From Phycisphaeraceae bacterium (lineage in GTDB: Bacteria; Planctomycetota; Phycisphaerae; Phycisphaerales; UBA1924), in NCBI GenBank assembly GCA_021297895.1, contig JAJTHN010000048.1, forward strand, positions 1 to 44,527: a stretch of DNA of 44,527 bases. The letters are read 5' to 3'. Below, one piece after another: positions 135-15,388 of the stretch (position 1 is the first letter of the stretch; each line of letters opens with the position of its first letter). The notes below the pieces were generated by a model. It was not told the origin of the DNA and searched no databases. It worked only from the letters and a program-made list of their open reading frames with translations. Made by a program: the position numbers and the translations under genes.

Positions 135-2174
135 TCATACAGTCCCCCCCACCCCCCCCGGTGCATCAGCACCGGGGGCGGGGGTCGCTCCGACTCTCCT
201 CCCCTCCCCGGGCTCGTGCAGGTTGTCGGGAGGATTGATGCTGAACCGGTGGGGTGCAGTCGGGCCGTCTTGGTGGCGATGGACCAGCCCGGCCTCGAGC
301 GCCCGCCTCAGCAGGGACTCGGCTTGGGTCTTGCCGAGCCCGCACGCCTTGCCCCGGGCGATCACTTCATCACGAATGGACCGCAATCGCCCCACAACGT
401 CGCCGGCGAAGAGTTCGGGCGTCCATTGGCGGATCGGCTCGAGCGCCGGCGATGCCGCCTTGGTGGAGTCCGCGGGCTTGCCGCGACGGGTGGGCTTCCG
501 CAACTGGGAAGGGTCCAGGTCCGGGGCCAGCGCCCAGCCCGGCTTGGTGGACCGGATCACGAATGAGTCCATCGGCGGGAACGATCGCACCACGGCATCG
601 ACCACCACCGCGTCGTCAACTTCGTGGGGCCGCAGGATCAGGTGCGTATCCGCCGCGCGGCTCTGCGAACCAGCGCCCGCGCCAACGTCCGTCACCGCCT
701 TCTCCGACTGGTTCCCCTTCGTCGCGTGATGCACCACCACGACCGACGCGCCCGAGCGCTTGGCGATCCCGTCCAGGGTGTTGTAGACGCGCGTCATCGT
801 TTCGTTGGCGTTCTCCTCCCCGTCCAGCGGGAGGAACCGGTACAGGGCATCGACCACGATCAGCCGGTATGTGCCCGCCGGCACGGCTTGCAACTCGGCC
901 TCGATCGCGTCGATCGTCTGGCGTTGTCCGCGCACCGGCCAGACTTTCAGGTCCGCCAGGTCCGATTCTGATACGCCCATCGCCTTCCCGGTCGCGTCCA
1001 ACCGGCTGGCGAGTGTTTCGCGGTGCAGTTCGCCGTCGATCAGCAGGACCCGCCCGCGCGTGGTCGCCTTGCCGAGCCACGTCCCGCCGGACACCGCGGC
1101 GACCGCCAGCGCGTGAACCAGCCACGACTTGCCCACCTTGGGGGCCGCCACCACGTTCATCGTTTCGCCCTCACGCAGCAGGTCGGCGATCACCACCGGA
1201 CGCAACCGCGGATACTCGCGGATGAGTTCGCCCGCCGCGATCGGTGCGAATGCGCGGGCCGGCTCGGGGCTTGCCGCGCCGGCGTCGCTCGTCCACCCGC
1301 CGGGGTGCGTCCCGGCGTTCGTGGCCGGGCGCTGCCGGGGGTGCATCGCACCCGACGCGATCCCCGACGCGATGGTGCGTCGGGCCTCATCCTCGGGCAG
1401 CCCGCACGATCGCGCGGCCGCCAGCAGTTCCGATTCCGCAACAGATCGCTCGACTTCGCCGCCGCCGATCAGCGTCCCGATGCTGAACGCCGCACGGTTG
1501 AGCGTGTCATTTCGCCCGCCTTCGGGTGCGTGGGCCACGGTCGCCGCTTCACGCCGCAGGGCCTCGCGCCCGTAGGTGCTTGCAGTCCCCGCCGGCGACG
1601 GGGAGCGCAACGCGGGTGCAGGTGCAGGGTCCGGGCGTTCGCCCAACTCGGCCCGCACCGCGCCGGCCAGTGCGTCCAGCGCCGCGATCAGGTCGGCGGG
1701 TTCGATCGTGGCGGGCTCGCCGTCGTCATCCCAACGTACCGGCTCGCCGCTCGGATGCACCGAGCCCGGGGCGATCGTCTGGCATCCGGTCGATCGCAGT
1801 TCCACGATCATCCCGGCGTTCTTGCTCGTCCACTTCCGCGTGTCGGCGGGGCTCGTCAGCCGGTACAGCCGGTGCGATCGGGGCTTGGATGTGCGCCCCC
1901 ACGTCATGCCCGTATGGGGCAGGAACGAATCGGCCAGGTCCACCGCGCGGGCGTGGTCCAGGTCAACATCCACGATCCACCCGGCGGAGGCACCCAGCAG
2001 CGTGCCGACGTTCGCGGGCGCGCCGTTGAAGTGTCGGGGAAGGTCGGCTGGCTCCAGCCGCAGGGCTTGCCAGCCGGCGAGCCGCGGTCCTTTCGACTTG
2101 TGCGGGACGGGGATCGGTGCCAGCCCCCGGGCGTGCAGGTCGCGGGCGTGGTCCAGTGCGGTTCGCTCGTTCAT
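135..2174 (-). CDS. Prim-pol primase fused to RepA-like helicase
   Basis: Probable replication protein of the integrated element, about 679 residues. The N-terminal 170 residues fit the bifunctional primase-polymerase (prim-pol) fold, with acidic motif DVDLD at about 69-73 and a downstream SH pair at about 100. The C-terminal half is a RecA-like AAA ATPase of the RepA/AAA_25 type: Walker A APKVGKSW at about 345-352, LLIDGE, LIVVDAL and the VVVVHH motif. A winged-helix-like tail follows. ATG at 2174 is preferred because GGGAG precedes it; an ATG at 2249 would overlap the upstream gene by 34 bases. The gene order (small HTH genes then prim-pol) resembles P4-like satellites and integrative plasmids. 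The extreme C-terminus is Gly/Pro-rich and abuts an IS end, so it may not be original. Confidence 0.85.
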   Translation of the reverse strand: MNERTALDHARDLHARGLAPIPVPHKSKGPRLAGWQALRLEPADLPRHFNGAPANVGTLLGASAGWIVDVDLDHARAVDLADSFLPHTGMTWGRTSKPRSHRLYRLTSPADTRKWTSKNAGMIVELRSTGCQTIAPGSVHPSGEPVRWDDDGEPATIEPADLIAALDALAGAVRAELGERPDPAPAPALRSPSPAGTASTYGREALRREAATVAHAPEGGRNDTLNRAAFSIGTLIGGGEVERSVAESELLAAARSCGLPEDEARRTIASGIASGAMHPRQRPATNAGTHPGGWTSDAGAASPEPARAFAPIAAGELIREYPRLRPVVIADLLREGETMNVVAAPKVGKSWLVHALAVAAVSGGTWLGKATTRGRVLLIDGELHRETLASRLDATGKAMGVSESDLADLKVWPVRGQRQTIDAIEAELQAVPAGTYRLIVVDALYRFLPLDGEENANETMTRVYNTLDGIAKRSGASVVVVHHATKGNQSEKAVTDVGAGAGSQSRAADTHLILRPHEVDDAVVVDAVVRSFPPMDSFVIRSTKPGWALAPDLDPSQLRKPTRRGKPADSTKAASPALEPIRQWTPELFAGDVVGRLRSIRDEVIARGKACGLGKTQAESLLRRALEAGLVHRHQDGPTAPHRFSINPPDNLHEPGEGRRVGATPAPGADAPGGVGGTV

Positions 2175-2215
2175 GTAGCACTCACTCCCGGCTTCGGCCC
2201 ATGGCGGCGTGTGCC

Positions 2216-2617
2216 CTAGACCGTCGTTGCGAGCGTTGCCGCCACCCATACCGACAGGGGGCGACCGCTTGACGTGTTCCGTCGACGTCCCGAATCGACC
2301 ACCAGCCCGAGGGCGACCAGTTCACCGCGTTGGGGCGTATAGATCTGGGGCTTGATCCCAAGCGCTGCCATGCCCTCGTCATCGGTCGCCCCGTTCGTGC
2401 CCTGGCCGATGATGAATCCCAGCACCGCCGCCCGAAGCGTCCGAGCGTGGCCGGCGATCCGATCCGCCTCGACGCACGATGTTGCCAGACGGGCTTTGTG
2501 GTGCACGGCTGGTGCAAAGTGCGGCCGCGGTAACGTAGATTCGGATGACCGGTTCTCACCGTTCACGCTCGCCCCGCCCGCCGGCGGGGCCGCGTCGTCT
2601 TTGAGGGGCGTGTTCAC
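2216..2617 (-). CDS. Small winged-helix-like protein of the island
   Basis: About 133 residues starting at GTG 2617, which overlaps the stop of the upstream HTH gene in a GTGA tetranucleotide, so translation is probably coupled. The C-terminal 75 residues look like a winged helix: a helix containing AVLGFIIGQ, then TDDEGMAALG, PQRGELVALGLVVDSG, and a basic hairpin ending in SVWVA. The same arrangement occurs in small phage and plasmid proteins that bind DNA near replication genes. The N-terminal 40 residues are low-complexity. A longer frame reaches to 2737, but the overlapping GTGA start is more economical. Exact role unknown; regulation or replication of the element is inferred from position. 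Confidence 0.6.
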   Translation of the reverse strand: MNTPLKDDAAPPAGGASVNGENRSSESTLPRPHFAPAVHHKARLATSCVEADRIAGHARTLRAAVLGFIIGQGTNGATDDEGMAALGIKPQIYTPQRGELVALGLVVDSGRRRNTSSGRPLSVWVAATLATTV

Positions 2618-2832
2618 TGGTCCACCGCCTTGCCGGCCTGCTCGGCAAGCCAGGCTTGCAGCAGGTGGTAGGGGTACAGCACGCAGCCCCGAGTGCGCAC
2701 GCAAGGGATCGGGCCACGCGGATGCGTCAGGTCCCACAACGTGCGTTCGCCGATTCCCAGCGCCTTGGCCGCGTCTTTGGGTCGAAGGGCGAGGGGCGAG
2801 CCGGAGTCCGGGTGGGGGGGATTACTTGGCAT
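2614..2832 (-). CDS. AlpA/excisionase-like HTH protein
   Basis: About 72 residues with a MerR-like/HTH_17 fold: LRPKDAAKALGIGERTLWDL is the helix-turn-helix, followed by a wing (RGPIPCVRTRGCVLYPYH) and the helix LLQAWLAEQ. This is the usual architecture of AlpA-type regulators and recombination directionality factors, which control excision or early transcription in satellites and prophages. ATG at 2832 overlaps the end of the preceding HTH gene by 11 bases. The stop overlaps the GTG of the next gene. An upstream ATG at 2844 is possible. No integrase is visible in the window. Confidence 0.75.
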   Translation of the reverse strand: MPSNPPHPDSGSPLALRPKDAAKALGIGERTLWDLTHPRGPIPCVRTRGCVLYPYHLLQAWLAEQAGKAVDQ

Positions 2833-3019
2833 GCGCCATCCCACCTTCCTGCCGCTCGGCCAGAGTCCTTAGTACCGCCGCGAGGTCAAACATGCGCAGC
2901 CGGCCCGCACGAATGCAGGGCAACCGCCCTGCGTCGGCTTCGCGCTTCAGCCATGCCGCAGGCAGCCGCGTGGCTCGTGCCAGTTCTTCAACTCGAATGT
3001 ACTTTGTGTCCATGCCCAC
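2822..3019 (-). CDS. Second small HTH_17-type DNA-binding protein
   Basis: Sixty-five residues, a compact excisionase-like HTH: YIRVEELARATRLPAAWLKR forms the helix-turn-helix, RLPCIRAGRLRMFDLAA the wing and the helix after it. It is the first of three overlapping small genes that lead into the prim-pol gene, suggesting one early operon read leftward. The 11-bp tandem repeats lie 64 bases or more upstream, in operator position, so this protein or the next is a candidate for binding them. Specific function unknown. Confidence 0.7.
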   Translation of the reverse strand: MGMDTKYIRVEELARATRLPAAWLKREADAGRLPCIRAGRLRMFDLAAVLRTLAERQEGGMAHAK

Positions 3020-3063
3020 AGTTTCGCAGGCGTGGTGCGGTTGTCAGCATCGACATGGTAGCG

Positions 3064-3115
3064 TGCGGCTTACTTGCGTGCGTGCGGCTTATCTGCGGCT
3101 TATCTGCGGCTTATC
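3064..3115. repeat. 11-bp tandem repeats (iteron-like)
   Basis: TGCGGCTTATC is repeated perfectly three times in tandem (3083-3093, 3094-3104, 3105-3115). There is a degenerate copy upstream at 3064-3074 and a weaker match after 3116. The period equals about one DNA helical turn, so a bound protein would sit on one face. The array lies upstream of the three-HTH/prim-pol operon and covers the last codons and stop of the 321-residue gene. Iterons or stacked operators are the likely explanations. Confidence 0.7.
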
Positions 3116-4054
3116 CGCGGTTTGGTTGCTTCCCCACCGCGCCCACTTTTCAGCCATCGCAGCTCGCTCGATGAAGTTCCCGGCGAGTGCCGCTGCGATC
3201 AGCCCATCAACCTCGCTCGGCACGTATCGCCGGCGCCTCGCTGCCGCACCCCTCTCCTTAACTTCGATTCCTGCCGCGTTACGGACACGGCGGAAGGTGT
3301 CATTGCTGACACCCGCCACGGCGGCAAGGTCTCCCGTCGTCGGATAGGTTGGTGTCGTGTTGTCTACTGCACCAGCGAATAGAGCCCTAGGCTTCGCGAC
3401 GCCGCTTTCGCCACCGCCCGACACGCGTGCGATCGCCTGGGGGTTCACTACCGCCGCGCGTTGCAGCGAGTCCAGCAAGTCGGGTGACACAAACACCGTG
3501 GGCGTTCGGGGCTGGACACCCGCCACGATGGCCGACTTCACTTCCTCCATGCGTTGAAAAACAGGCCTCGCGCATTCGCGCAGCGCGTCTGGCACGCCCG
3601 CCCGGATCAAGGGCAGCGCGGTGGGACGCGCCTGAGCCTTGAATCCAAGAACGATCGCACCCCGCAACTTCCGCAGGTGGCCGATCGTCCGAATGGTCCA
3701 GCGTTGCTCGATCGGCTGCGCCTCGCTGTCCATATAGGCCGAGACCTTGGAAACCGCCTCCATCGCGGAGTCCACCGCAGCCCGGAGCGCCAACGCCGCG
3801 TCGATCGCCTCCCGGCGGGGCCGACGCTCATGGGAGGGCGCGTGGTCCGTCCATTCCGGGTCTAGCGTGCGTCCCCAGGTGTTGTCAGGATCCGTCGGGA
3901 CGTAGAAGTAGCCGGGGTTCGGGGTCCCGGCTTTCGCGTACCGCGCTTCCAACCTTTCAACCGACTTCGCCAGCCGGTCGGCCTTTCGGGACGCATCAAG
4001 CAACGCATCCCGAGCGCAGGCCAGCGAGTCCTCACCGTTGGGTGTCTTTGCCAT
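3089..4054 (-). CDS. Island protein with C-terminal HTH, unknown function
   Basis: A 321-residue protein with no family I can name. The N-terminal third is charged and helical, probably coiled coil (DALLDASRKADRLAKSVERL). The middle is a hydrophobic/basic helical stretch. Near the C-terminus TTGDLAAVAGVSNDTFRRV looks like a helix-turn-helix, followed by basic RRRR and a final helix. It may be a regulator or replication accessory protein. It is transcribed leftward, away from the defence-like cassette, and its stop codon falls inside the 11-bp repeat array, so the repeats encode its last residues as well as lying upstream of the next operon. ATG at 4054 starts MAKTPNGEDS. Confidence 0.6.
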   Translation of the reverse strand: MAKTPNGEDSLACARDALLDASRKADRLAKSVERLEARYAKAGTPNPGYFYVPTDPDNTWGRTLDPEWTDHAPSHERRPRREAIDAALALRAAVDSAMEAVSKVSAYMDSEAQPIEQRWTIRTIGHLRKLRGAIVLGFKAQARPTALPLIRAGVPDALRECARPVFQRMEEVKSAIVAGVQPRTPTVFVSPDLLDSLQRAAVVNPQAIARVSGGGESGVAKPRALFAGAVDNTTPTYPTTGDLAAVAGVSNDTFRRVRNAAGIEVKERGAAARRRRYVPSEVDGLIAAALAGNFIERAAMAEKWARWGSNQTADKPQISRR

Positions 4055-4723
4055 GTTCCACCGTCCTTTGTCGGGCCGGAAGGGCGGGGCAGCGGGGACG
4101 GTGTGAACCGCCGCCGCCGCCCATTCCGTTCGCCGGGGATCAGCCAGCTACCCGAGCAACACTACGACACTGGCATCAGGCGCGGCAACTGACTAAGTGA
4201 TGAGTGCTGCCCGCACGCCTCACTGCCGCGTTCATCACCAGAACGCGGCCTCGGGTGAAGTCTTCCGCACTTGCGTTCCGCTGTCGCCTGGGAAGCGAGT
4301 TTTCTGGCGGTCGTCGTGTTGTGACTGCGAAGGTCCCGAGATTGACGAAGATGTCCACCGCGCCGTCATGACGCTGGTGACGGATGTGACACTTATGCCC
4401 CGATCGCACTGACAAGGTGTTGTCAGTTGCGGCGGAGAACTCCGGTCGCTCGCCCTGTACAGGGCCCCCTCGGAATAGCATCGAGCACGCAGAAACCGCT
4501 ACACTCGACCCATGCCACGAGTCGCTTGGGCACGAGAGCAACCAGTTGTTCCCCTGGTGTGCGGGAGAGCTTCTGGTCACGCGAAGAGCTTTGAGATTGC
4601 CATCGCTCAGCTCCGAAGGGTTGGGTATGGCGACACGGGACGTGGTGAGACATTAGGGGGTCACTTGAGGTTCCAAAAGACGGCAGCGATCGAGTGGCTT
4701 CGGGGAGGGGAAGGGCGCAAACC
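4055..4723. other. Divergent intergenic region
   Basis: About 670 bases separate the leftward island genes from the rightward helicase cassette. Short open frames exist on both strands but none shows a recognisable protein or convincing start. It must hold the promoters for both directions. The clearest element is a perfect 8-bp inverted repeat at 4408-4427. The stretch is visibly less GC-rich than the flanking coding sequence. I could not identify convincing -35/-10 boxes. Confidence 0.5.
4408..4427. promoter_or_regulatory. Perfect inverted repeat, possible operator
   Basis: ACTGACAA-GGTG-TTGTCAGT is a perfect 8-bp inverted repeat with a 4-base centre, in the non-coding region between the divergent transcription units. 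No T-run follows on either strand, so an operator for a dimeric repressor is more likely than a terminator. Confidence 0.4.
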
Positions 4724-7606
4724 TTGACATCCATATCCCCACACCAAGCCTGCTTTTACGCTCACGAACTCACACGCCTCGGTGCGGTCGGCGAAATGGA
4801 CCGTCTGTCCACCACGCTGTTCGACTCCAAAGTCGATCTCAACCCTCACCAAGTTGAGGCCGCGCTCTTCGCGATCTCCAATCCCCTTCAGAAGGGCGTC
4901 ATCCTCGCGGACGAAGTGGGTCTCGGAAAGACCATCGAGGCTGGCCTCGTGCTTTGCCAGCGGTGGGCCGAACGTCGACGCCGCCTCATCGTGGTGTCGC
5001 CCGCTCACATCCGAAAGCAGTGGCAGACGGAGCTCGCCGAGAAGTTCAATCTGCCTGCCATCGTGCTCGATCGCCGAGTATGGAACCAGTTACGCGCCGA
5101 GGGGCAACCGAATCCCCTCGACTGCGGGAAGATCATCGTTGTCTCCTACGGCTTCGCTGCCCGAATGAAGGACGATCTGCGCGCCATTCCCTTCGACCTC
5201 GTTGTGCTGGACGAAGCCCACAAGCTCCGCAATGCGTACCAACCCAGCCGTAGGGGTGGACAGGCTGTGCGATGGGCGTTCGAGCTGCGTCAGAAACTGC
5301 TGCTCACGGCGACGCCACTCCAGAACAGCCTGTTGGAGCTGTACGGTCTGGGCTGGCTGATCGACGATCACGTCTTCGGCGACAAGAGCTCTTTCCAGTC
5401 CCGCTATTGCAACGCCGGCGGCGATCTCGTCGGTCTTCGGACTCGCCTCGCACAGGTTTGTAAGCGCACGCTCCGCAAGGACTGCTCGTACATCAACTAC
5501 AAGAAACGCCAGGCAATGACCCATCCGTTCCCGCAGACGGATGAGGAGAAGTCGTTGCACCAGGACGTCATGGACTTCATGGCTCGCGAGATCAGCTTCG
5601 CCTTTCCCCAGCGGCAGCGACAGCTGATCGAGATGATCCTGTTCAAAACCCTGGCCTCCTCGCCGCAGGCGCTTGCCAGCACGCTCCGCACGATGCGGTC
5701 CCGCCTGATCGCCCTCCGCGATGGACTGCCCGAGGCGTCTGAAGAAGAGCTTCTCGACGCCTTGGCCGAGGAAGAGGACATCGACCTGGACGCGCTCGTG
5801 GAGCAGCTCGACAGCAGCGACGGTCTGATCCAGCCGGTTGAGCCGCTCGCTCAGGGGCGGCTATTGGCCAAGGAGCTGGCCGAGATCGACTTGCTCATCG
5901 CGCGCGCTGAGAGGATCGGCAGTGATAGCAAGTCGAGGGCGCTGCTAACGGCGCTCGACGCGGCCTTCATCCGGCTCAAGGAGCTCGGCGCAAAGCGAAA
6001 GGCGCTCATCTTCACAGAGAGCCGCAAGACACAGGCTTTCCTCGCTGGCTATCTCGAGGCCAACGGCTACGCGGGCAAAGTCGTCACGTTCAACGGCTCC
6101 AACACGCACCCGAGCGCCAAGCAGGCGTATGACCGGTTCGTGGCCAAGCACGCCGGCACGGACAATCTCACCGGCTCGAAGGCGGTCGACATGCGCTCGG
6201 CCCTGATCGAGGAGTTCCGCGACCGCGCGGAGATCCTGCTGGCGACCGAGGCCGCTGCGGAGGGCGTGAACCTCCAGTTCTGCTCGCTAGTCGTCAATTA
6301 CGACCTGCCCTGGAACCCCCAGAGGATCGAGCAGCGCATCGGCCGCTGCCATCGGTATGGACAGCTACATGACGTGGTGGTGGTCAACTTCCTATCCCAA
6401 GACAACCTCGCCGACAGGCGTGTCCAGGACCTGCTTCAACAGAAGTTCAGCCTCTTCGACGGCCTATTCGGCGCCAGCGACGAGGTTCTTGGAGCGATCG
6501 AGGAGGGCGTCGACTTCGAGAAGCGCGTGCTGGCGATCCTCAAGACCTGCCGCACTGACGAGGAGATCACCCGCGCGTTCGATGCCCTCCAGCGGGAGCT
6601 CGAGGAGACGATCACGCAGCGGATGACCCAGGCCCAGCAGCAACTTTTCGAGCACTTCGATGCGGACGTGCACGAGCGGCTGAAGATCAAGAGCCAGGAC
6701 GCGCAGGTCGCGCTGGACCGCGTCGGCGAGAGGTTCTGGAAACTCGCGCAGTGGGCCCTAGAGGATCGGGCCACCTTCGACGAGCGCTCGCTCGGCCTCG
6801 ACCTGCCCGAGCCGCCATCGCCCGACATTCCCGCCGGTCGTTACCGCCTCATCTCCGCCGTCCGCTCGGAGCAGGAGTTTGCCGCGACAGAGGCGCACCT
6901 GCTCCGGCTGTCGAGCCCACTGGGGCAGTGGATGCTTGAGCACGCCAAGTCCCGGGCGCTGCCCCCCTCGTCTGTGTGCTTCGACATCTCGGGCCACGAC
7001 AAGAAGATCAGCATGCTCAAGCCGCTCTTGGGCAAGCGCGGCTACATGCGGATGGACAAGCTCACGCTCGACAGCGACGCGAGGGAGGAATTCCTGCTGT
7101 TCACCGCCGTCACGGACGACGGCGAGAATGTCGACCAAGAGCAGATCCAGCGTCTGATGGACGTGCCCGCCACCGCCCGCGAGGCGTCCCCGCCTGAACC
7201 CGACGCCGTGCGACGCCTCGACGCTGACGCCGAGCGGCTGCACTCCGCCACGCTGGCTCGCGCCACCGAGGGGTCGAACAAGCGCTTCAAGCAGGCGCAG
7301 GACCAGATCAATCAGTGGGCGGAGGACAAAATCGCCGGCGCTGAGCTCGACTTGGACCGGCTGCGCCGCGAGATCCGTGAGGCCCGACGCCAGGCCGACC
7401 TGGCCGAGACGGTGCAACTCCGCCAAGAGGCGCAGGATCGTCTGGCCGAGCTCGAGCGTCGCCGTCGCCGCCAGCGGCAGGAGATCTTCGACTTGGAAGA
7501 CGAGATCGAGAAGAAGCGGCAGGGGCTGATCTCCCAGCTCCGCCAGCACGCCACCAAGACCTCGCGCATTGAGACGATCTTTGTCACGCGCTGGGAGGCT
7601 CGATGA
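4724..7606 (+). CDS. SNF2-family helicase of defence-like cassette
   Basis: About 960-residue SF2 ATPase of the SNF2/RapA-like class, expected to move along or remodel DNA. Counting from GTG 4694, motifs include Walker A DEVGLGKTIEAG (about 73-84), DEAH box VLDEAHKLRN (about 171), TATPLQN (about 206), and C-terminal motifs EAAAEGVNLQ and RIEQRIGRCHRYGQ (about 517-557). The last 120 residues form a long charged coiled coil. The start is either GTG 4694 or TTG 4724. TTG is preferred because GGGGAGGGGAAGGG lies 9 bases upstream and the protein then begins at the conserved SPHQACFYAHELTR segment. The stop overlaps the sigma gene start (ATGA). SNF2 helicases accompany methyltransferases in several phage-defence systems, for example DrmD in DISARM, but the other DISARM genes are absent. 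Confidence 0.85.
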   Translation: MTSISPHQACFYAHELTRLGAVGEMDRLSTTLFDSKVDLNPHQVEAALFAISNPLQKGVILADEVGLGKTIEAGLVLCQRWAERRRRLIVVSPAHIRKQWQTELAEKFNLPAIVLDRRVWNQLRAEGQPNPLDCGKIIVVSYGFAARMKDDLRAIPFDLVVLDEAHKLRNAYQPSRRGGQAVRWAFELRQKLLLTATPLQNSLLELYGLGWLIDDHVFGDKSSFQSRYCNAGGDLVGLRTRLAQVCKRTLRKDCSYINYKKRQAMTHPFPQTDEEKSLHQDVMDFMAREISFAFPQRQRQLIEMILFKTLASSPQALASTLRTMRSRLIALRDGLPEASEEELLDALAEEEDIDLDALVEQLDSSDGLIQPVEPLAQGRLLAKELAEIDLLIARAERIGSDSKSRALLTALDAAFIRLKELGAKRKALIFTESRKTQAFLAGYLEANGYAGKVVTFNGSNTHPSAKQAYDRFVAKHAGTDNLTGSKAVDMRSALIEEFRDRAEILLATEAAAEGVNLQFCSLVVNYDLPWNPQRIEQRIGRCHRYGQLHDVVVVNFLSQDNLADRRVQDLLQQKFSLFDGLFGASDEVLGAIEEGVDFEKRVLAILKTCRTDEEITRAFDALQRELEETITQRMTQAQQQLFEHFDADVHERLKIKSQDAQVALDRVGERFWKLAQWALEDRATFDERSLGLDLPEPPSPDIPAGRYRLISAVRSEQEFAATEAHLLRLSSPLGQWMLEHAKSRALPPSSVCFDISGHDKKISMLKPLLGKRGYMRMDKLTLDSDAREEFLLFTAVTDDGENVDQEQIQRLMDVPATAREASPPEPDAVRRLDADAERLHSATLARATEGSNKRFKQAQDQINQWAEDKIAGAELDLDRLRREIREARRQADLAETVQLRQEAQDRLAELERRRRRQRQEIFDLEDEIEKKRQGLISQLRQHATKTSRIETIFVTRWEAR

Positions 7607-8532
7607 GCGGTGTCGCCGCGCTCGCCACTTCCCTGCTCCCGGCCGCTCCGGTCGTCTTGCAGCCTCCCGCCCGCCCCGGCGTTCCGCTTCCGCTCACGCC
7701 GCGGCTGAGTCGACGGCGTCGCCGCTGCTTCTACGCCATCAAGGCCACGCGAGCCCAGATCCGCATGCCCGCCGCGGGTCGCCTTGGGTACCTTACCCAA
7801 TCCCGGCTCCTGCAGCGAGCCCAGGCCGGCGATCGCGACGCCTCCCGGCTCGTGTGGGCCGCCAACGCCAGGCTCGCGTACTCGGTAATCAACCGCTTCC
7901 GCGTCCGCCCCGACCTCATGGCAGACGCGTTCCAAGAGGTCCAGATCGGGCTCTGCAAGGCGATCCGCCGCTTCGAGGTCCAGCGGCTGCACGAGTTCTC
8001 CACCTACGCGTTCGCCGCGATGCGTAGCTTCGCCCTCCGGCACCGCAACTGCGTGGGCTATGCCGTCCGCCTGCCCGCCCACCTCGCCATCGCGTATTAC
8101 CGCTTCCGCGACCGCGTGGCCGAGGCGCCGACCCGGCCTCAGTGGTTCGATGCCCGCGAGGAGTACCTCGAGCGCAACGCGGACGAGTACCGGGCACTCC
8201 TCGCGCTGCACCGGCTCGCCTCGCCTTCGGCCCTGGACGCGGCGAGCGAGGAGCCGGCTCCTACGCTCAGCCCCGAGGATCGTGTTTTCGCCGCCGACGC
8301 GGCCGAAGCATTGCGCGCCTGCCTGCCTGACCTGGAGAAACGCCAGCAGATCGTCCTCGCACGCCGCTTCGGCCTCTGGGGCGGCCCGCCCGAGACCCTG
8401 GAGCAGATCGGCCCCTCCCTGGGCCTGACCAAGGAGCGGATCCGGCAGATCCAGAACCAGGCGCTCGCCGACCTGCGGGAGCTGCTTCAGGCACGTGGTT
8501 GGTCGGATCTTCCGCCGTCGCTCGTTCGTTAG
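7603..8532 (+). CDS. RNA polymerase sigma-70 family factor in the cassette
   Basis: A 309-residue sigma factor. Region 2 is clear: NARLAYSVINRF, then DAFQEVQIGLCKAIRRFE (about 107-125) and FSTYAFAAMRS, the core-binding and -10 recognition segment. Region 4 lies near the C-terminus: RQQIVLARRFGL, then TLEQIGPSLGLTKERIRQIQ, the -35-binding HTH. The first 60 residues are a Pro-rich and Arg-rich extension. It resembles group 2/3 sigma factors more than ECF factors because the linker between regions 2 and 4 is long. ATG overlaps the helicase stop (ATGA) and GGGAGG sits just upstream, so it is translated with the helicase. It probably directs transcription of the cassette or other genes; a replication or structural role cannot be excluded. 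Confidence 0.85.
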   Translation: MSGVAALATSLLPAAPVVLQPPARPGVPLPLTPRLSRRRRRCFYAIKATRAQIRMPAAGRLGYLTQSRLLQRAQAGDRDASRLVWAANARLAYSVINRFRVRPDLMADAFQEVQIGLCKAIRRFEVQRLHEFSTYAFAAMRSFALRHRNCVGYAVRLPAHLAIAYYRFRDRVAEAPTRPQWFDAREEYLERNADEYRALLALHRLASPSALDAASEEPAPTLSPEDRVFAADAAEALRACLPDLEKRQQIVLARRFGLWGGPPETLEQIGPSLGLTKERIRQIQNQALADLRELLQARGWSDLPPSLVR

Positions 8533-8574
8533 CCGCCCCCACCCATAGCAAGTCAACGCCCCGCTCGCCCCACC

Positions 8575-11500
8575 ATGCCCCCAGCAAACACAGCCATTAC
8601 GGACAGCAAGTTCAACGCTCTCAAGGCCAAGCTCCGCGAGCTCTTCGAGCTCGACAAGTCGGACCTGGACTTCGGCATCTACCGGATCATCGCCGCCAAG
8701 AACAAAGAGGTCACCGAGTTCCTCGACCGCCAGCTCAAGGACGTGGTGAAGGCCACGCTCGCGGCACACGGAGCAGGGGCCACCGATCAGGTCCAGGCCG
8801 AGCTCGACAAGGCGATCGACCAGGCTCGCACGCTCGGTGCTGACCCAGAAGCCCTACCGAAGGTGAAAGAGCTCCGCTCCCGCCTTGAATCCGCGGGCGG
8901 CGCGGCAGCCGCCGAACTCGAAGCCGACATCTATAACCACCTGCTCGCCTTCTTCGGCCGCTACTACGACGAGGGCGACTTCATCTCCCAGCGCCGGTAC
9001 AAGGGCGACACCTACGCCATCCCCTACAGCGGCGAGGAAGTGACGCTCCATTGGGCCAACAAGGACCAGTACTACATCAAGTCCGGCGAGTGGCACAAGG
9101 ACTACCGGTTCAAGGTTGGCGGCAGCAGCGACAAGACCGTCCGCTTCAAGCTCATCGAGGCCACGCAGGAGGTCGGCAACAACAAGGAGGCCGACGACGC
9201 TAAGCGTCGGTACATCCTCGCGATCGAGAACCCGGTCGAGGAAGCCCAAGGCACACTGACGCTGCGCTTCGAGTTCCGCGTGCCAACGCAGGCCGACAAG
9301 GACCGTGCCGCAGGTGGTGCGGTCGCCGTCTTTGGCGGCGATTACGCCAAGGCGTCCAACCCCAAGAAGGGCGATGAGCGCGAGCAGTTCTGCGCCGATG
9401 CCGAGAAGCGGGCCGTCGCGGCAATGCCCGAGGCGTGGAAGGCGCTCATCGCCGCCCCCGGAGCCGCCGCGACGGCGGACAAGCCCGCCCGCACGCTCCT
9501 CGGCAAGCACCTGGACCACTTCTCCGCCCGCAACACCTTCGACTACTTCATCCACAAGGATCTGGGGGGCTTCCTCCGCCGCGAACTGGACTTCTACATC
9601 AAGAACGAAGTCGTGCGGCTGGATGACCTCGAGTCTCTCCCGCCCGATCACCTTCAGCGCGTGCAGGGCAAGGTCAAGGCCATCCGCGCCGTGGCCAGCC
9701 GCCTGATCGCGTTCCTCGGCTCGCTCGAGGAATTTCAGAAGAAGATGTGGCTCAAGAAGAAGTTCGTGCTCAACACGAACTGGCTCGTGACCGTGGACCG
9801 TATCCCGCCCGCGCTCCGCGATGTGGTCGCGCAGAACGCCGAGCAGTGGGCCGAGTGGGAGCGACTGGGCTTCAAGCCGGAGAACACAGGCGACGCGGGG
9901 CTCTTCGGAGGTGCTGCGTGGGGCACTCGGGCGTATCTGGACGCGTGCGACAAGCTGGTAGTAAGCACACGTTTCTTCGACATGGCCTTTCAACAGACGC
10001 TGCTCGCCAGCGAGGAAGTATCACTTGGCACTCGCATGCTCGACGATGCGATCGCCGGAACGCTGATCAACGGCGACAATGAGCACGCTATCCGTCTGTT
10101 GTTGCATCGTCTCGCCGACCAAGTTGACTGTCTGTATCTCGATCCTCCGTACAACACCGATGGCGGACCGATCAACTACAAGAATGGCTTCAAGAGCTCG
10201 TCCTGGATGTCGATGATCCACTGCCGGCTGGCTACCTCGGACGCCTTTCTCCGGCGTGACGACGGCATCTTGTGCATGACAATTGATGATTTTCAGCAGA
10301 AAGAACTTCACGCCATCATCGAGAGTGTGTTCGGACGGAGATCACTCGCAGGAACGGTAGTCGTGAGAAGCAACCCGTCCGGACGGCCTGTTCCTTCCGG
10401 ATTTGCGCAGTCACACGAGTATGCCATCTTCGCGACCAAGGGGCCTGGTGCGAGTGTCGGGTTGCTCCCGCGTTCAGACGACCAAGCGGCTCGATACAAG
10501 GAGGAGGACGAACGAGGCCGCTTCATGTGGGAGCTATTCAGAAAGCGAGGCTCCGCTTCAGAACGGCGGGAGCGACCCTCAATGTACTTTCCGCTCTTCC
10601 TGCGTTCCGCTGAGAACGCTTTGCGAGTGCCCACGCTGGAGTGGGACAATAGCGGTAACGCATGGGTGCTGCAAGAACAGCCACATGCTGACGAGGTAGT
10701 TCTATGGCCCATCGATGAGAACGGCGTGGAGAGGCGTTGGAGATGGAGCCTAGAGCGCACTCGCGATGAGATTTGCCAACTGCGCGCTGAACGCAACGGC
10801 ACCGATTGGACAGTCTACTACCGCTACAGGCCGATGCTCGATGGCGTCCTTCCAACCACGGTTTGGTCAGACGCGAAGTACTCCGCGACTGAACACGGCA
10901 CGGGTGTTCTCAAGAAGCTGTTCGCGGACTTCAACGTGTTCTCATACCCCAAGTCAATATATGCGGTATCTGATTGCATAGCAGTCGCTGGGCTCGCGGA
11001 ACGCACGAACGGCCTCTGTCTGGACTACTTTGCGGGATCAGGGACAACAGGACACGCAGTGATTGATCTGAATCGGCGCGACGGCGGCCACCGTCGCTTC
11101 ATTCTGGTCGAGATGGGCGCTCACTATCACCGCGTGGTTGTCCCTCGCATAGCAAAGGTGATCTTTTGTCCGGAATGGAAGGATGGCAAGGCGCAATCGC
11201 ACCGCGATGGTCTCTCATCGCTTGTCAAGTGCTTGTCCCTCGAATCCTACGAAGACGCCCTGAACAACCTCCCCGCGCCCTCCGGCACGCTCCTCGACGG
11301 CCGTTCGGCAGCCGAGAAGGAAGCCCTGATCACCTACGGCCTCGATCTCGAACTCGGGCCGCACCTGCTCAACCTCGACGGGTTCCGCGATCCGTGGGGG
11401 TACACGATCAACGCTCAACTGGCCGGTGATGCCGAGATCAGGCGGCACCGCGTCGATCTGGTCGAGACCTTCAACTACCTGATCGGACTGAAGGTCCATG

Positions 11501-11934
11501 CGTACGGGCCACTGGAGCGGTACAGCGCCGATTTCGACCGTGCCGCGCATGCCGACGGGCTCGGTCGCATGAAGCTCACCGGCCGCCTGCGCCGCGACGC
11601 GCGGGGTGATGGCGAAGCTCCGTATGTCTTCCAGCGTGTCGAGGGCGAGTTGAACGACGGCAACGGCACGCGCGTGCTGGTCGTGTGGCGCAAGCTGACC
11701 GATGACCCGGAGAAGGACGCCGCCGTGCTCGACGCATGGATGGCTCGGCACCGCGAGAGCACCCGCGAGCGGATGGAGCACCGCGACTACCACCTGATCT
11801 ACATCAATGGCCCGGTGACCCTGCCCCAGCCGACAGCCGAGATTCGCACGGTGTGCCCGACGGAGGAGACGTTCAAGATCAAGATGTTCGAGGACACCGA
11901 CTCGGCATCCCAGGTGGGAGGCGGTCATGGCTAA
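8575..11934 (+). CDS. Adenine-specific DNA methyltransferase, type III Mod-like
   Basis: A 1,119-residue methyltransferase, far longer than a usual type III Mod (about 600). The catalytic motif LDPPYNTDG is at about 522-530 and the AdoMet motif FAGSGTTG at about 819-826, the beta-class order. The roughly 290 residues between hold the likely target recognition domain. The N-terminal 480 residues are an extra module beginning KFNALKAKLRELFELDKSDL, and a 240-residue C-terminal module follows the AdoMet site. Predicted product is N6-methyladenine in DNA, protecting self DNA. The central part (about 9,960-11,230) is less GC-rich and uses more A/T-ending codons than its flanks. No clear ribosome binding site precedes ATG 8575. 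The gene starts 42 bases after sigma and overlaps Res by 8 bases. Confidence 0.9.
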   Translation: MPPANTAITDSKFNALKAKLRELFELDKSDLDFGIYRIIAAKNKEVTEFLDRQLKDVVKATLAAHGAGATDQVQAELDKAIDQARTLGADPEALPKVKELRSRLESAGGAAAAELEADIYNHLLAFFGRYYDEGDFISQRRYKGDTYAIPYSGEEVTLHWANKDQYYIKSGEWHKDYRFKVGGSSDKTVRFKLIEATQEVGNNKEADDAKRRYILAIENPVEEAQGTLTLRFEFRVPTQADKDRAAGGAVAVFGGDYAKASNPKKGDEREQFCADAEKRAVAAMPEAWKALIAAPGAAATADKPARTLLGKHLDHFSARNTFDYFIHKDLGGFLRRELDFYIKNEVVRLDDLESLPPDHLQRVQGKVKAIRAVASRLIAFLGSLEEFQKKMWLKKKFVLNTNWLVTVDRIPPALRDVVAQNAEQWAEWERLGFKPENTGDAGLFGGAAWGTRAYLDACDKLVVSTRFFDMAFQQTLLASEEVSLGTRMLDDAIAGTLINGDNEHAIRLLLHRLADQVDCLYLDPPYNTDGGPINYKNGFKSSSWMSMIHCRLATSDAFLRRDDGILCMTIDDFQQKELHAIIESVFGRRSLAGTVVVRSNPSGRPVPSGFAQSHEYAIFATKGPGASVGLLPRSDDQAARYKEEDERGRFMWELFRKRGSASERRERPSMYFPLFLRSAENALRVPTLEWDNSGNAWVLQEQPHADEVVLWPIDENGVERRWRWSLERTRDEICQLRAERNGTDWTVYYRYRPMLDGVLPTTVWSDAKYSATEHGTGVLKKLFADFNVFSYPKSIYAVSDCIAVAGLAERTNGLCLDYFAGSGTTGHAVIDLNRRDGGHRRFILVEMGAHYHRVVVPRIAKVIFCPEWKDGKAQSHRDGLSSLVKCLSLESYEDALNNLPAPSGTLLDGRSAAEKEALITYGLDLELGPHLLNLDGFRDPWGYTINAQLAGDAEIRRHRVDLVETFNYLIGLKVHAYGPLERYSADFDRAAHADGLGRMKLTGRLRRDARGDGEAPYVFQRVEGELNDGNGTRVLVVWRKLTDDPEKDAAVLDAWMARHRESTRERMEHRDYHLIYINGPVTLPQPTAEIRTVCPTEETFKIKMFEDTDSASQVGGGHG

Positions 11935-14900
11935 GCGCCCCCCCGGTCGTCCACCGAAGGCGGTCGCCGCGGCCGTCACCGAGGCCGCAAACCCGGCTCA
12001 GGCCGCCACCGTGCCGCCTGCCGCCCCGCCCCGTCGTGGCCGGCCTGCGGGCAATGGTGCGGGGGGGCGGGTAAAGCCTGACTTTCACCGTCAGACGGTG
12101 CTGTTTCAATGGGCGCTCTCGAAGCTGGGCGTGCGTGATCTGAAGCAGTTCAAGGAGCGGTTTCAGGTCTCGCCCGACAGTGCGGAAGGCATCGACGAAC
12201 GAACCGGCCTGCACCGTTTCTTCGAAGCGATCGCCGGTGTACTGCCGACGGTGGCTGATGCCAACGTTGTGCCCGTGGACCGCTTGAGGGTGTACGAACA
12301 GAACATTCTGGAGCACACTCAAGCGATCAACACCTCGCGCATGCGGCACAACCAGCCTCGGATCGACTGGAAGTACCACCAGTACCTGGCGCTGCTGTTC
12401 ACGGAGATGTTCCTGGATCGGTACTTCCAGGACGCCGGAGCGCTACGCGGGGAGATCAACGCGAGGATCGCCGAGCACAACACGGAGTGTGGCGTGGATT
12501 CCCCGGACGCGGTTGCGCCGTTCTCGACCGAGGCACGCGACGGCGATGACGCCGACCCCAAACGTCAGTTGGCACGATTGGCGTTCTGGTGCGCCACAGG
12601 CAGCGGCAAGACGCTGCTGATGCATGTTCATGTACGCCAGTTCCGCCAGTATCACGCGACCGCGTTTGCCGCGGGGACATGGCCCAAGCTCGACCAGATC
12701 ATCCTCGTCACCCCCAATGACGGCCTCAGTGCTCAGCACGCCACGGAGTTCGCCCAGTCTGGGTTCGATGTCGTGACCGTCGGCGAGCAAGGCGTCGATG
12801 GGCTGTTCGCCGAGCAGGCCCAGCGGGCGATCAAGATCCTCTCGATCCACAAGTTCCAGGATGATCACGGCAAGGCGACCGTGGCGACCGAGGCGTTTGA
12901 AGGGTGCAACCTTGTTCTCGTGGACGAAGGGCATCGCGGCGCTGGTCGCGGCGAAGACGGCAAGTGGCTCGCCCGCCGCGATCAACTCGCCAAAGGTGGC
13001 TTCTGCATCGAATACTCTGCCACGTTCAAAGAGGCGATCGGCACCGACGAGGCGATGAAGAACAGGTACGCCCGGAGCGTGCTGTTCGACTACGCCTACC
13101 GGAGCTTCTACCGCGATGGGTACGGCAAAGATTTCACGATCCTGAATCTGGAAGACGACGACAAGCAGCGGCGATACCTCACCGCAGCGGTGCTCCTGTT
13201 CTATCAGCAGTTGCGGGTGTGGATGGACGGCGGCGACGCGATGAAGCCGTTCCAGATCGACAAGCCGCTGTGGGTGTTCGTCGGGCACACAGTGACGGGC
13301 GGCAAGGTATCGAGCACCGACGACAAGGAATCCGTCTCGGACGTGGTCGAGGTGCTCTTGTTCCTGAAGTCATTCCTCGCCGCGCCCGCTGAGGCGGTGG
13401 CGCTAATCCAGAGCCTGCTGGAGGAGGGGTTCAAGGACCAGAACGGGCGTGATCTGCTGGCGCACCGATTGCCGCACATCGATGTGTCCGGCGACAAGGC
13501 CGCGCAGGCCCGGGCGCTGCACGAGGGCATCCTGCGGGATGTGTTCCACGCTCCCGGCGGCGGTGTGCTGGCGGTGCAGATGCTCAGGGGGGCAACCGGT
13601 GAGTTGGCTCTCAAGGTCGGCGAGGCCGAACCGTTCGGTGTCGTCAATGTGGGCGAGCCGGGCGCGGTCGCGGAGGCTTGCGCGGCCAAGGGCGTCGTGC
13701 GGCTGGAGGACGATGCCAATCGCTCGTCTCTGTTCCAGGGCATCAACCGCGATGACAGCCCGATCAACCTCCTCGTTGGCTCCCGGAAGTTCACCGAGGG
13801 ATGGAACTCCTGGCGGGTGTCATCCATCGGGCTCATGCGCATGGGCAAGAGCGAAGGCACGCAGATCATCCAGTTGTTCGGGCGCGGCGTGCGGCTGCGG
13901 GGCTACCGGATGAGCCTGCGCCGCTCCTCTGTGTTGGCGGATAAGCCCGCGCCGCCCAGGAATCTGCGGCAGGTCGAGACGCTTCAGGTCTTTGGCGTCA
14001 AGGCCACCTACATGAACACCTTCCGGGATTGGATCTTCAGCGAGGTTCCCGAGGCCCAGGAGAAGCAAGTCTGGGACATCCCGGTCGTCAAGACGCTGCC
14101 AGAGCGGAAACTGAAGACGCTCCGCCTTCGCGCGGAGATCGATGGGGAGACCGTTGAACGCGGGCAAGCGTTCCGCAAGCTCGGGCCACTCGTGCAGCTC
14201 CGGCCCCCGCACGAGACCGCGCCCGAGGATGCGTGGCTCCGGCACCATCGCACGAAGCTGAACTGGCTGCCGCGCATTCGCGGCATCGCCGGCGCGAATC
14301 AGCAGATCACTGCTGCGATCGGGCAGGCCGCCGATCTGCCGAGGCAGACGCTCAAGTCCGTACCGTTGTTCCTGTTCGACCTCGACGGCCTGCTGTTCGG
14401 CCTGGAAGCCTTCAAGGCCACCCGCGGGCTGGACCGTCTGCACGTCGATCTCGCCGCCATCACCGCGATGTTGACACGCGATGACTGGTACGAGTTGCTG
14501 GCGACCGCCGACGACATGCGTCTAGACCGCTACGAGAATCGCTCGCACTGGCAGCGCATGGCACAGCAGTTGTTGAACGCCTACGCCGAGCGGTTCTACC
14601 GCTACATCCGGGGGCGCTGGGAAGCGCCGTACCTGGAGGTGGCCGAGCTGGCACCCGACGATCCCAACCTCGTGGACGGTTACAGCATCGAGACGACCGA
14701 TCTGGCCCAGACCGCCGAGCAGATCGAGCAGATTGCGACATTCATCGAAGGGCTCAAGACGGCGCTGGGGCAGAACCTCCTGGCCACATGGAGCCAGTGG
14801 GGCGGGCGTTGGCGCACGGTGCCGTTCGGCGGCCACCTGTATCAGCCCCTCCTCCACGTCGGGAAGAACGCGGAGATCCGGATCAGCCCGCTCGCCCTCG

Positions 14901-15388
14901 ACAAGTGGGAGGCAGAGTTCGTGCAGGACTTGGCCACATGGTGCATGGCTAACCCTGGACGCGAGGTCTACCTGCTGCGTAATCAGGCGGTGACCGGCCT
15001 CGGGTTCTTTCAGGCCGCGAACTTCTTCCCCGACTTCCTGCTGTGGGTCCAGGAGGGGGAACGCCAGCATCTGGCGTTCGTCGATCCGAAGGGCCTGCAC
15101 CACTTCGACCCGAGCGACCCGAAGGTGCAGTTTGCCACCCGCGAGGTGCCCCGGCTTCAGCAGATCGTGGAGCGACAGGCCCCCGACCTGCAACTGCACG
15201 CCTTCATCCTCTCCAACACGCCCTTCGCCAGCCTCGGCTGGTCACGTGGCGATGGTCAGTTGATGTCCAAGGCGGAGGTGGAGCAGTTGGGCGTTCTGTT
15301 TCAAGAGGATGATGCCACAACATATGTGGCACAGCTCTTGGATTCGATCTTGGGGGCTCAGTCAGACCGGGGCCCTCAGGAAGCCTGA
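11927..15388 (+). CDS. Type III restriction Res-like helicase-nuclease
   Basis: An 1,153-residue SF2 helicase with a C-terminal nuclease motif. After a basic Pro/Ala-rich N-terminus come Walker A ATGSGKTLL (about 222-230), a DEGH box in LVDEGHRGAG (about 331), SATFKEA, and motifs V/VI (VGSRKFTEGWNSW and IIQLFGRGVRL). Near the C-terminus NFFPDFLLW (about 1030-1038) and FVDPKGL (about 1050) fit a PD-(D/E)xK site with DPK as the second part. Type III Res subunits pair with Mod, translocate with ATP and cut DNA. The start overlaps the Mod stop by 8 bases and has GGGAGG upstream, so Mod and Res are coupled. All catalytic signatures look intact. Confidence 0.88.
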   Translation: MAKRPPGRPPKAVAAAVTEAANPAQAATVPPAAPPRRGRPAGNGAGGRVKPDFHRQTVLFQWALSKLGVRDLKQFKERFQVSPDSAEGIDERTGLHRFFEAIAGVLPTVADANVVPVDRLRVYEQNILEHTQAINTSRMRHNQPRIDWKYHQYLALLFTEMFLDRYFQDAGALRGEINARIAEHNTECGVDSPDAVAPFSTEARDGDDADPKRQLARLAFWCATGSGKTLLMHVHVRQFRQYHATAFAAGTWPKLDQIILVTPNDGLSAQHATEFAQSGFDVVTVGEQGVDGLFAEQAQRAIKILSIHKFQDDHGKATVATEAFEGCNLVLVDEGHRGAGRGEDGKWLARRDQLAKGGFCIEYSATFKEAIGTDEAMKNRYARSVLFDYAYRSFYRDGYGKDFTILNLEDDDKQRRYLTAAVLLFYQQLRVWMDGGDAMKPFQIDKPLWVFVGHTVTGGKVSSTDDKESVSDVVEVLLFLKSFLAAPAEAVALIQSLLEEGFKDQNGRDLLAHRLPHIDVSGDKAAQARALHEGILRDVFHAPGGGVLAVQMLRGATGELALKVGEAEPFGVVNVGEPGAVAEACAAKGVVRLEDDANRSSLFQGINRDDSPINLLVGSRKFTEGWNSWRVSSIGLMRMGKSEGTQIIQLFGRGVRLRGYRMSLRRSSVLADKPAPPRNLRQVETLQVFGVKATYMNTFRDWIFSEVPEAQEKQVWDIPVVKTLPERKLKTLRLRAEIDGETVERGQAFRKLGPLVQLRPPHETAPEDAWLRHHRTKLNWLPRIRGIAGANQQITAAIGQAADLPRQTLKSVPLFLFDLDGLLFGLEAFKATRGLDRLHVDLAAITAMLTRDDWYELLATADDMRLDRYENRSHWQRMAQQLLNAYAERFYRYIRGRWEAPYLEVAELAPDDPNLVDGYSIETTDLAQTAEQIEQIATFIEGLKTALGQNLLATWSQWGGRWRTVPFGGHLYQPLLHVGKNAEIRISPLALDKWEAEFVQDLATWCMANPGREVYLLRNQAVTGLGFFQAANFFPDFLLWVQEGERQHLAFVDPKGLHHFDPSDPKVQFATREVPRLQQIVERQAPDLQLHAFILSNTPFASLGWSRGDGQLMSKAEVEQLGVLFQEDDATTYVAQLLDSILGAQSDRGPQEA

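Follow-up and report, generated by a model that had tools for sequence, protein, structure and literature searches.

Sigma factors linked to bacterial defence are already known. In the available parts of the published accounts, MzaA is the sigma-family protein of the anti-phage MZA system (NCBIfam NF041931, PADLOC PDLC02203; PMC9523054), and CalpS is a defence-linked sigma factor that serves a transcriptional response in type III CRISPR and is released when the protease CalpL cuts the anti-sigma factor CalpT (PMC12751052). The subject of the present analysis is a cassette of four genes in a 44,527-nucleotide stretch of DNA from a Phycisphaeraceae bacterium of the phylum Planctomycetota (contig JAJTHN010000048.1, positions 1-44527), hereafter the window, which is one of the contigs of a 3.48 Mb genome. 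The cassette encodes an SNF2-type helicase, a sigma-70-type factor and the methyltransferase Mod and helicase-nuclease Res of a type III-like restriction system, in that order. The initial annotation had regarded such a pairing of sigma factor and defence locus as undescribed, a claim that MzaA and CalpS do not support; the present case is a sigma factor within a restriction operon. Transcription guided by dCas12f together with a sigma factor is a further precedent, on which no paper was found in the literature search. A restriction operon encoding its own sigma factor was not found in open-access full texts or in two restriction-modification reviews, as far as their available portions extend and with preprints outside the scope. 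Among the matches listed from open-access full texts, no published type III system was seen to include a sigma gene. The literature compared consisted of portions of PMC12839542, PMC9523054, PMC12751052, PMC7641849, PMC12707154 and PMC3874152.

The window sigma is not MzaA, as it scores 87.2 bits against a cut-off of 800; with the MzaA model, another sigma factor of the same genome (contig C52) reaches 340 bits, compared with 84 for the window sigma. As in MZA, a sigma-70-family gene is present within an anti-phage operon, although the partners of the window gene are SNF2, Mod and Res, not the mzaBCDE genes that accompany mzaA. CalpS and the window sigma are both defence-linked sigma factors; genes for CalpL, CalpT, Lon-SAVED or CRISPR were found among none of the 18 window open reading frames (ORFs) scanned with Pfam, a set that includes the cassette, the other ORFs lying outside the scan. 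The window Mod and Res strongly match the PADLOC type III models, and the cassette differs from type III restriction-modification in the addition of SNF2 upstream and the sigma gene between. The helicases DrmD of DISARM class 1, BrxHII of Type-3 BREX and HmaA of the DUF499 (BR/Hma) systems are related to the window SNF2 protein, but PglZ, BrxC, DUF499 and DrmB are absent among the four cassette proteins. DISARM class 1 is composed of DrmD, DrmMI, DrmA and DrmB; the present locus falls outside it, with an SNF2 protein below the DrmD cut-off and the composition SNF2, sigma, Mod and Res. The DUF499 systems, in the available part of PMC12839542, combine a DUF499 ATPase with a methyltransferase and a helicase, and the lack of DUF499 in the four proteins likewise places the cassette outside this group.

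All four genes lie on the forward strand. The SNF2/RapA-like, DrmD-like helicase gene spans 4694-7606, its exact start codon being uncertain. Its product matches SNF2-rel_dom (8.1e-27) and Helicase_C (7.9e-20) in Pfam and DrmD (1.3e-187) in PADLOC. It resembles DrmD, BrxHII, RapA and related models with every NCBIfam score under its cut-off, including those for DISARM_DrmD_b (626.6 bits, cut-off 950) and RapA (150 bits, 7.3e-44, cut-off 576). The sigma gene (7603-8532, 309 amino acids) starts with an ATG at 7603 and the SNF2 stop codon TGA occupies 7604-7606, so that an ATGA is common to both genes. A Shine-Dalgarno-like GGGAGG, read from the sequence, lies inside the SNF2 gene at 7593-7598, directly 5' of the sigma start. 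The Mod gene (8575-11934) starts 42 bases 3' of the sigma stop and encodes a type III DNA methyltransferase with a DPPY motif, recognised by eye (Pfam N6_N4_Mtase 4.4e-18; PADLOC MTase_III 8.5e-186). The Res gene (11927-15388) encodes a type III helicase-nuclease (Pfam ResIII 6.1e-9; PADLOC REase_III 1.9e-165) and overlaps with Mod by 8 bases, its start at 11927 preceding the Mod end at 11934.

The sigma protein belongs to the sigma-70 family by profile, with 70.6 bits against TIGR02937 (cut-off 42.9), and its matches to Sigma70_r2 (8.2e-9) and Sigma70_r4 (3.6e-12) both exceed the Pfam gathering scores. Region 2 comprises residues 86-147 (7858-8043) and region 4 residues 241-293 (8323-8481), as in RpoS and RpoD. 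RpoS is the best match by profile and by fold, and among solved structures RpoS chains are the closest (1.7e-23). The AlphaFold2 model is modest (mean predicted local distance difference test score 63), and its fold matches in the PDB are sigma-S and sigma-A chains. The best of these is 5ipl_F (E 2.6e-10), with a whole-chain template modelling score of 0.40; the overlay is poor because the two domains sit in a different relative placement. The fold of the window sigma is predicted to be sigma-like.

The SNF2-Mod-Res arrangement is a widespread type III-like cassette. Relatives of Mod at an E-value of 1e-60 occur in 16/294 planctomycete genomes, the own genome counted, and the best 80 of at least 588 Mod relatives in genome contigs were kept for the comparison of loci. 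The junction set comprises 68 fetched loci (from L023-L116) with SNF2 directly 5' of Mod on the same strand, the window being additional. A sigma gene lies between SNF2 and Mod in three of the 68, namely L054 (Phycisphaerales UBA7812; genome G1001), L037 (Planctomyces sp. NAT128; G466) and L103 (G137; identical to L013). The genomes of the window (G000) and L054 belong to one family and those of L037 and L103 to another. With the window counted, the slot holds a sigma gene in 4/23 planctomycete junctions and in 0/46 others. A junction was taken as planctomycete when its record is so named or comes from the phylum of the window genome, and planctomycetes such as L055 may therefore be among the 46.

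The tight spacing of the window is mostly preserved in the other three loci. The distance from SNF2 to sigma is -4 in the window, +2 in L054, +4 in L037 and -1 in L103, and that from sigma to Mod is 42, -4, -35 and 47, respectively, the first possible Mod start being taken. The Shine-Dalgarno-like motif is GGGAGG in the window, L054 and L103 and GGGAAG in L037. Identity to the window sigma is 41% for L054, 32% for L037 and 31% for L103, and all are open reading frames. Retention under selection is indicated, because the slot and spacing are kept and the frames are intact at 31-41% identity in the other three loci. The initial annotation had seen the sigma gene as fixed in the operon, and had named two doubts, namely that the gene might be present in this genome only, or that its homologues might be housekeeping sigma factors with no link to cassettes of this kind. 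The search for SNF2-sigma-Mod-Res synteny removes the first doubt, the same slot being occupied in L054, L037 and L103, and the separate, cassette-tied clade described below removes the second. The fixation itself holds as tight spacing in more than one genome but not as a general feature, given the junction counts and the sister cassettes without a sigma gene.

The four cassette sigmas form one clade with support of 99/98.7 against 33 other rows, in which two own-genome genes were entered twice, leaving 31 distinct planctomycete sigmas. After the addition of viral and G837 sigmas, the support is 100/96 against 34 rows. Stop-to-stop ORFs were the input of all trees. The branches are long, and long-branch attraction of the cassette sigmas may play a part. 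A profile of the four sigmas was searched against overlapping sets of genomes: 392 from the phylum, 298 from the class and 400 from the order to which the window genome belongs, and 170 from the family and order of G137. The best four or five candidates per genome were scored in the first three sets, and up to ten in the last. Only G000, G137, G466 and G1001 exceed 420 bits, and the next-best scores are 142.6 bits in the phylum set and 153.4 bits (G837) in the own-order set, a specificity that is partly circular because the profile was built from the same four proteins. The contig of G466 and L037 are reverse complements, and L054 includes the 3 kb of G1001 that were tested; these are therefore the same four loci and no extra ones. 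With the window protein as the sole query, L054 scores 210, L037 122 and L013 108 bits, whereas three further sigmas encoded in the window genome reach 51-53 bits. Among the best 4-10 candidates scored per genome, the clade was found at no other genomic position in the planctomycete genomes searched. A recognisable sigma clade is tied to the slot in four loci. Within it, the window and L054 are firmly joined, while L037 and L103 are joined weakly (91/79) and are not resolved as a pair in the tree without viral rows.

Sigma relatives are encoded by 11 viral loci. A viral origin is disfavoured, as the four of these put into the tree all fall outside the cassette clade. Relatives are also present in 297 plasmid records, the best among the matches listed having 29-32% identity. 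A general pairing of SNF2 with sigma genes is disfavoured as well; the G837 sigma (locus L164) falls outside the clade, and by sigma profile 0/12 loci with C3a139-type helicases carry a sigma gene nearby, some of these loci ending at contig ends. In L164 (6581-8949, reverse strand), a helicase-like fragment is closely followed by a sigma gene, the product of which has a long N-terminal part of no recognised kind, and a NERD-domain gene is nearby. In PADLOC the fragment matches SNF2 models weakly (best 1.1e-9), and it has no Pfam helicase match. A search of G837 with PDLC02193 gave no match.

The initial annotation had described regions 2 and 4 as intact and had placed the sigma gene in an ATGA overlap with SNF2, 42 bases before Mod and then Res. 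The coordinates bear out this arrangement. In the alignment of regions 2.4 and 4.2 that it had suggested, the domains and the -35 helix stand, but region 2.3/2.4 has changed at the residues for -10 reading and melting, which together with the separate clade distinguishes the cassette sigmas from RpoS and RpoD. The region 4.2 helix T[KR]ER[IV]RQI, which reads TKERIRQI in the window, is preserved in 4/4 cassette sigmas. At the positions that we take, from the usual numbering, to correspond to W433, W434, Q437 and T440 of E. coli, the residues are A, A, S and L in the window, A, A, R and Q in L054, H, W, Q and M in L037, and Y, W, Q and A in L103. Among the 31 distinct other planctomycete sigmas, W occupies the first position in 19/31 and the second in 30/31, and Q the third in 29/31. 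The standard -10-reading and melting residues of the RpoD/RpoS type are absent in the window (A/A/S) and L054 (A/A/R). From these residues we infer that a near-standard -35 preference may be combined with a changed -10 preference, the change being stronger in the window and L054. The L037 and L103 sigmas differ further from RpoS and RpoD in an extra C-terminal domain. With hhalign, this domain aligns with region 4 at a probability of 93 (pairwise E 3.5e-7) and gives no match to region 2.

On the Mod tree (90 rows, junction visible in 66), sigma-bearing cassettes lie in two distant clades, A (window, L054) and B (L037, L103), with close sister cassettes that have no sigma gene. The distribution needs at least three changes on the Mod tree, and likewise three on the SNF2 tree. 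The Mod and Res trees join the window with the sigma-less L023 and L031 (99/98 and 100/100). A single sigma loss in clade A, with the sigma-less rows forming one clade, is rejected at p 0.0029 for Mod and p 0.0001 for Res. Eight usable rows entered this test, all with a known junction without sigma; L032, in which the junction is not visible, was left out. The SNF2 body does not reject a single loss (p 0.078, nine rows); it favours window + L023 + L031 (93/97) and does not reject window + L054 (p 0.264).

In its ancestry, the 66-codon 3' end of the SNF2 gene (residues 905-970; 7406-7603) tracks the sigma gene and not Mod and Res. Compared with nine sigma-less relatives, 18 residues of SNF2 are exclusive to the window and L054, and 12 of these fall within 905-970. 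When the window is paired, as a control, with one of the nine relatives at a time, 1-9 residues are exclusive to the pair, with at most one in the last 40. In the tree of this tail, support is 96/91 for window + L054 and 97/90 for the nine sigma-less relatives. The approximately unbiased test rejects window + L023 + L031 for the tail (p 0.00064), a value that is optimistic because the boundaries were picked after the alignment had been viewed. No such tract was seen in the first 90 residues of Mod. The simplest reading is that a block of the SNF2 3' end and the sigma gene has been exchanged among clade-A cassettes, and the data suggest that the two move as one block; the other reading is a co-adaptation of the tail to sigma. 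Clade B, the other large clade, is a candidate donor of the tail. The best clade-B-like segment of the window tail is reached by 0/1000 shuffles and the likeness in L054 is weak (24/1000), but controls are equally clade-B-like in other places (L023 0/1000 at the N-terminus, L025 23/1000), and the tail tree keeps window + L054 beside the sigma-less clade-A rows (94/92).

The SNF2-Mod gap measures at least 300 bases in 24/68 junctions, the window not being counted. Gene content was read from a scan of 20 representatives, several of which gave no match. Apart from sigma genes, the slot contains Fic, AAA/AbiEii-like ATPase and 23S-IVP proteins and a weak PLD match, as well as regulator-like genes: HTH_3 with an ImmA/IrrE-type peptidase (L055, L104) and AlbA_2/Schlafen with a winged helix-turn-helix (HTH) (L091). 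Genes for RhuM, YhcG, AAA with DUF4276 and AbiJ-like proteins are found between Mod and Res. Given these assorted genes, the two junctions have the appearance of sites of gene exchange. The HTH_3 and ImmA/IrrE regulator that is present in the slot instead of sigma is located at 3589-4818 (forward strand) in L055 and 7736-8899 (reverse strand) in L104, and both cassettes are near the L037/L103 branch. In L103, an AAA_21 ATPase and a DUF4276 protein (3608-5445, reverse strand) lie between Mod and Res, relatives of both occurring at Mod-Res elsewhere; the pair resembles AriA/AriB of PARIS.

The reading tentatively favoured here, at a little under an even chance, is that the gene encodes a dedicated alternative sigma factor which is made together with SNF2 and steers the polymerase of the host to promoters in which the -10 box is altered, foremost the cassette's own. 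The sigma protein would be translated along with the SNF2 helicase and would bind the host core RNA polymerase. The holoenzyme would then be directed to promoters in which the -35 box is close to standard and the -10 box is not. The initial annotation had suggested that the factor could turn the system on in one burst, let the island draw in host polymerase, or sense a takeover of transcription by phage. The most likely target would be the promoter of the cassette, so that slight expression would lead to more in a positive feedback. The sigma gene would be one of several swappable genes of the SNF2-Mod junction, regulators among them, and may travel between cassettes as a block with the SNF2 3' end.

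Several observations weigh against this reading. With both melting tryptophans lost, the window and L054 sigmas may open promoters poorly or not at all, and the second tryptophan and the glutamine are retained in L037 and L103. Most of the cassettes examined have no sigma gene, and the loci number only four, two in each of two families. The slot also houses non-regulators (Fic, AAA ATPases, the 23S-IVP protein), and a place in it therefore does not by itself imply regulation. By-eye comparison of the regions upstream of the window and L054 cassettes did not find a convincing common -35/-10 pair.

An unlikely alternative is that the sigma factor acts as an effector. On expression of the cassette or sensing of an invader, it would redirect polymerase to distant host or island genes in the manner of CalpS, which is a precedent of a defence-linked sigma remodelling transcription in the available part of PMC12751052. 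A separate regulon is possible with -10-reading residues unlike those of other planctomycete sigmas. However, a gene for an anti-sigma factor directly beside the sigma gene is excluded because junction spacings of -4 and 42 bases leave no space, and the 18 scanned window ORFs contain no Lon-SAVED or CRISPR genes. It is also unlikely that the sigma gene is interchangeable cargo with no special tie to restriction, one passenger among others at an exchange hotspot between SNF2 and Mod. The many unrelated families behind the 24/68 enlarged junctions and the sister cassettes without sigma are in keeping with such a passenger, whereas the restriction of the clade to this site among the candidates scored in the genomes searched, the SNF2 tail that accompanies sigma in the window and L054, and the sigma tree, which firmly pairs window + L054 (L037 + L103 weakly) and so mirrors the deep split of the cassettes, are not.

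It is rather improbable that the protein is an adaptor, which has retained binding to polymerase and the -35 box, has lost melting, and ties the RapA-like SNF2 to RNA polymerase or DNA. The window SNF2 belongs to the superfamily of the polymerase-bound RapA, its match to the RapA model being under the cut-off, and BrxHII helicases have been paralleled with RapA in the available part of PMC12839542. The alanines at both tryptophan positions in the window and L054 and the SNF2 C-terminal tract that tracks sigma in the same two loci would also suit an adaptor, but L037 and L103 retain the second tryptophan and the Q437 equivalent, and SNF2 occurs without any sigma in most such cassettes. A chance neighbour is ruled out, as one sigma clade occupies one slot in four loci. 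Such a chance neighbour does exist in L109, where a FliA/WhiG-like sigma gene (by eye) is 5' of SNF2, outside the slot, and comes after a phosphoribosyltransferase-like gene (by eye).

A wider proposal, which we consider a long shot, is that some SNF2-Mod-Res systems are wired into transcription. A RapA-type SNF2 and its own sigma would act as a pair on polymerase with private promoters (standard -35, new -10), and the linked tail would reflect physical contact between SNF2 and sigma. Restriction would be tied to the transcription state of the host, for example by being triggered once the housekeeping sigma factor is disturbed by a phage.

Upstream of the cassette, TACACT in the window (4500-4511) and TACAAT in L054 (5945-5956) lie six bases before the ATG of an upstream ORF. 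The sigma-less L071, L025 and L027 carry TTGACA or TTGACG and TGAAAT at 17 bases, further upstream. A leaderless transcript and a different promoter are possible; a promoter class is not claimable, because the comparison is of two against three sequences. The upstream ORF of the window (4512-4727, forward strand) has 71 codons and precedes SNF2. Its ends match a small HTH_17/excisionase-type gene (by eye), which precedes SNF2 in L054, L071, L025 and L027, and its middle does not. The ORF has no Pfam match and may be a decayed or fast-changing regulator. Beside the cassette, a Prim-Pol and AAA_25 protein and small ORFs with an excisionase-type HTH (by eye) are encoded on the reverse strand at 135-4054 and are probably a mobile element. 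A further gene of the window (20396-22531, reverse strand) encodes a 711-amino acid protein with AP2, HTH_17 and HNH_3 in one chain (Pfam), an unusual nuclease-like multi-domain protein.

How costly restriction systems are kept silent and then expressed is an open question, to which repressors are the usual answer. If the favoured reading is true, a restriction operon with a self-encoded sigma factor would have a positive switch that works at the level of polymerase. The SNF2-Mod junction appears as a site of gene exchange between cassettes, and the sigma clade is usable as a search key for such systems. The findings suggest that a transcription switch of their own is part of some anti-virus systems.

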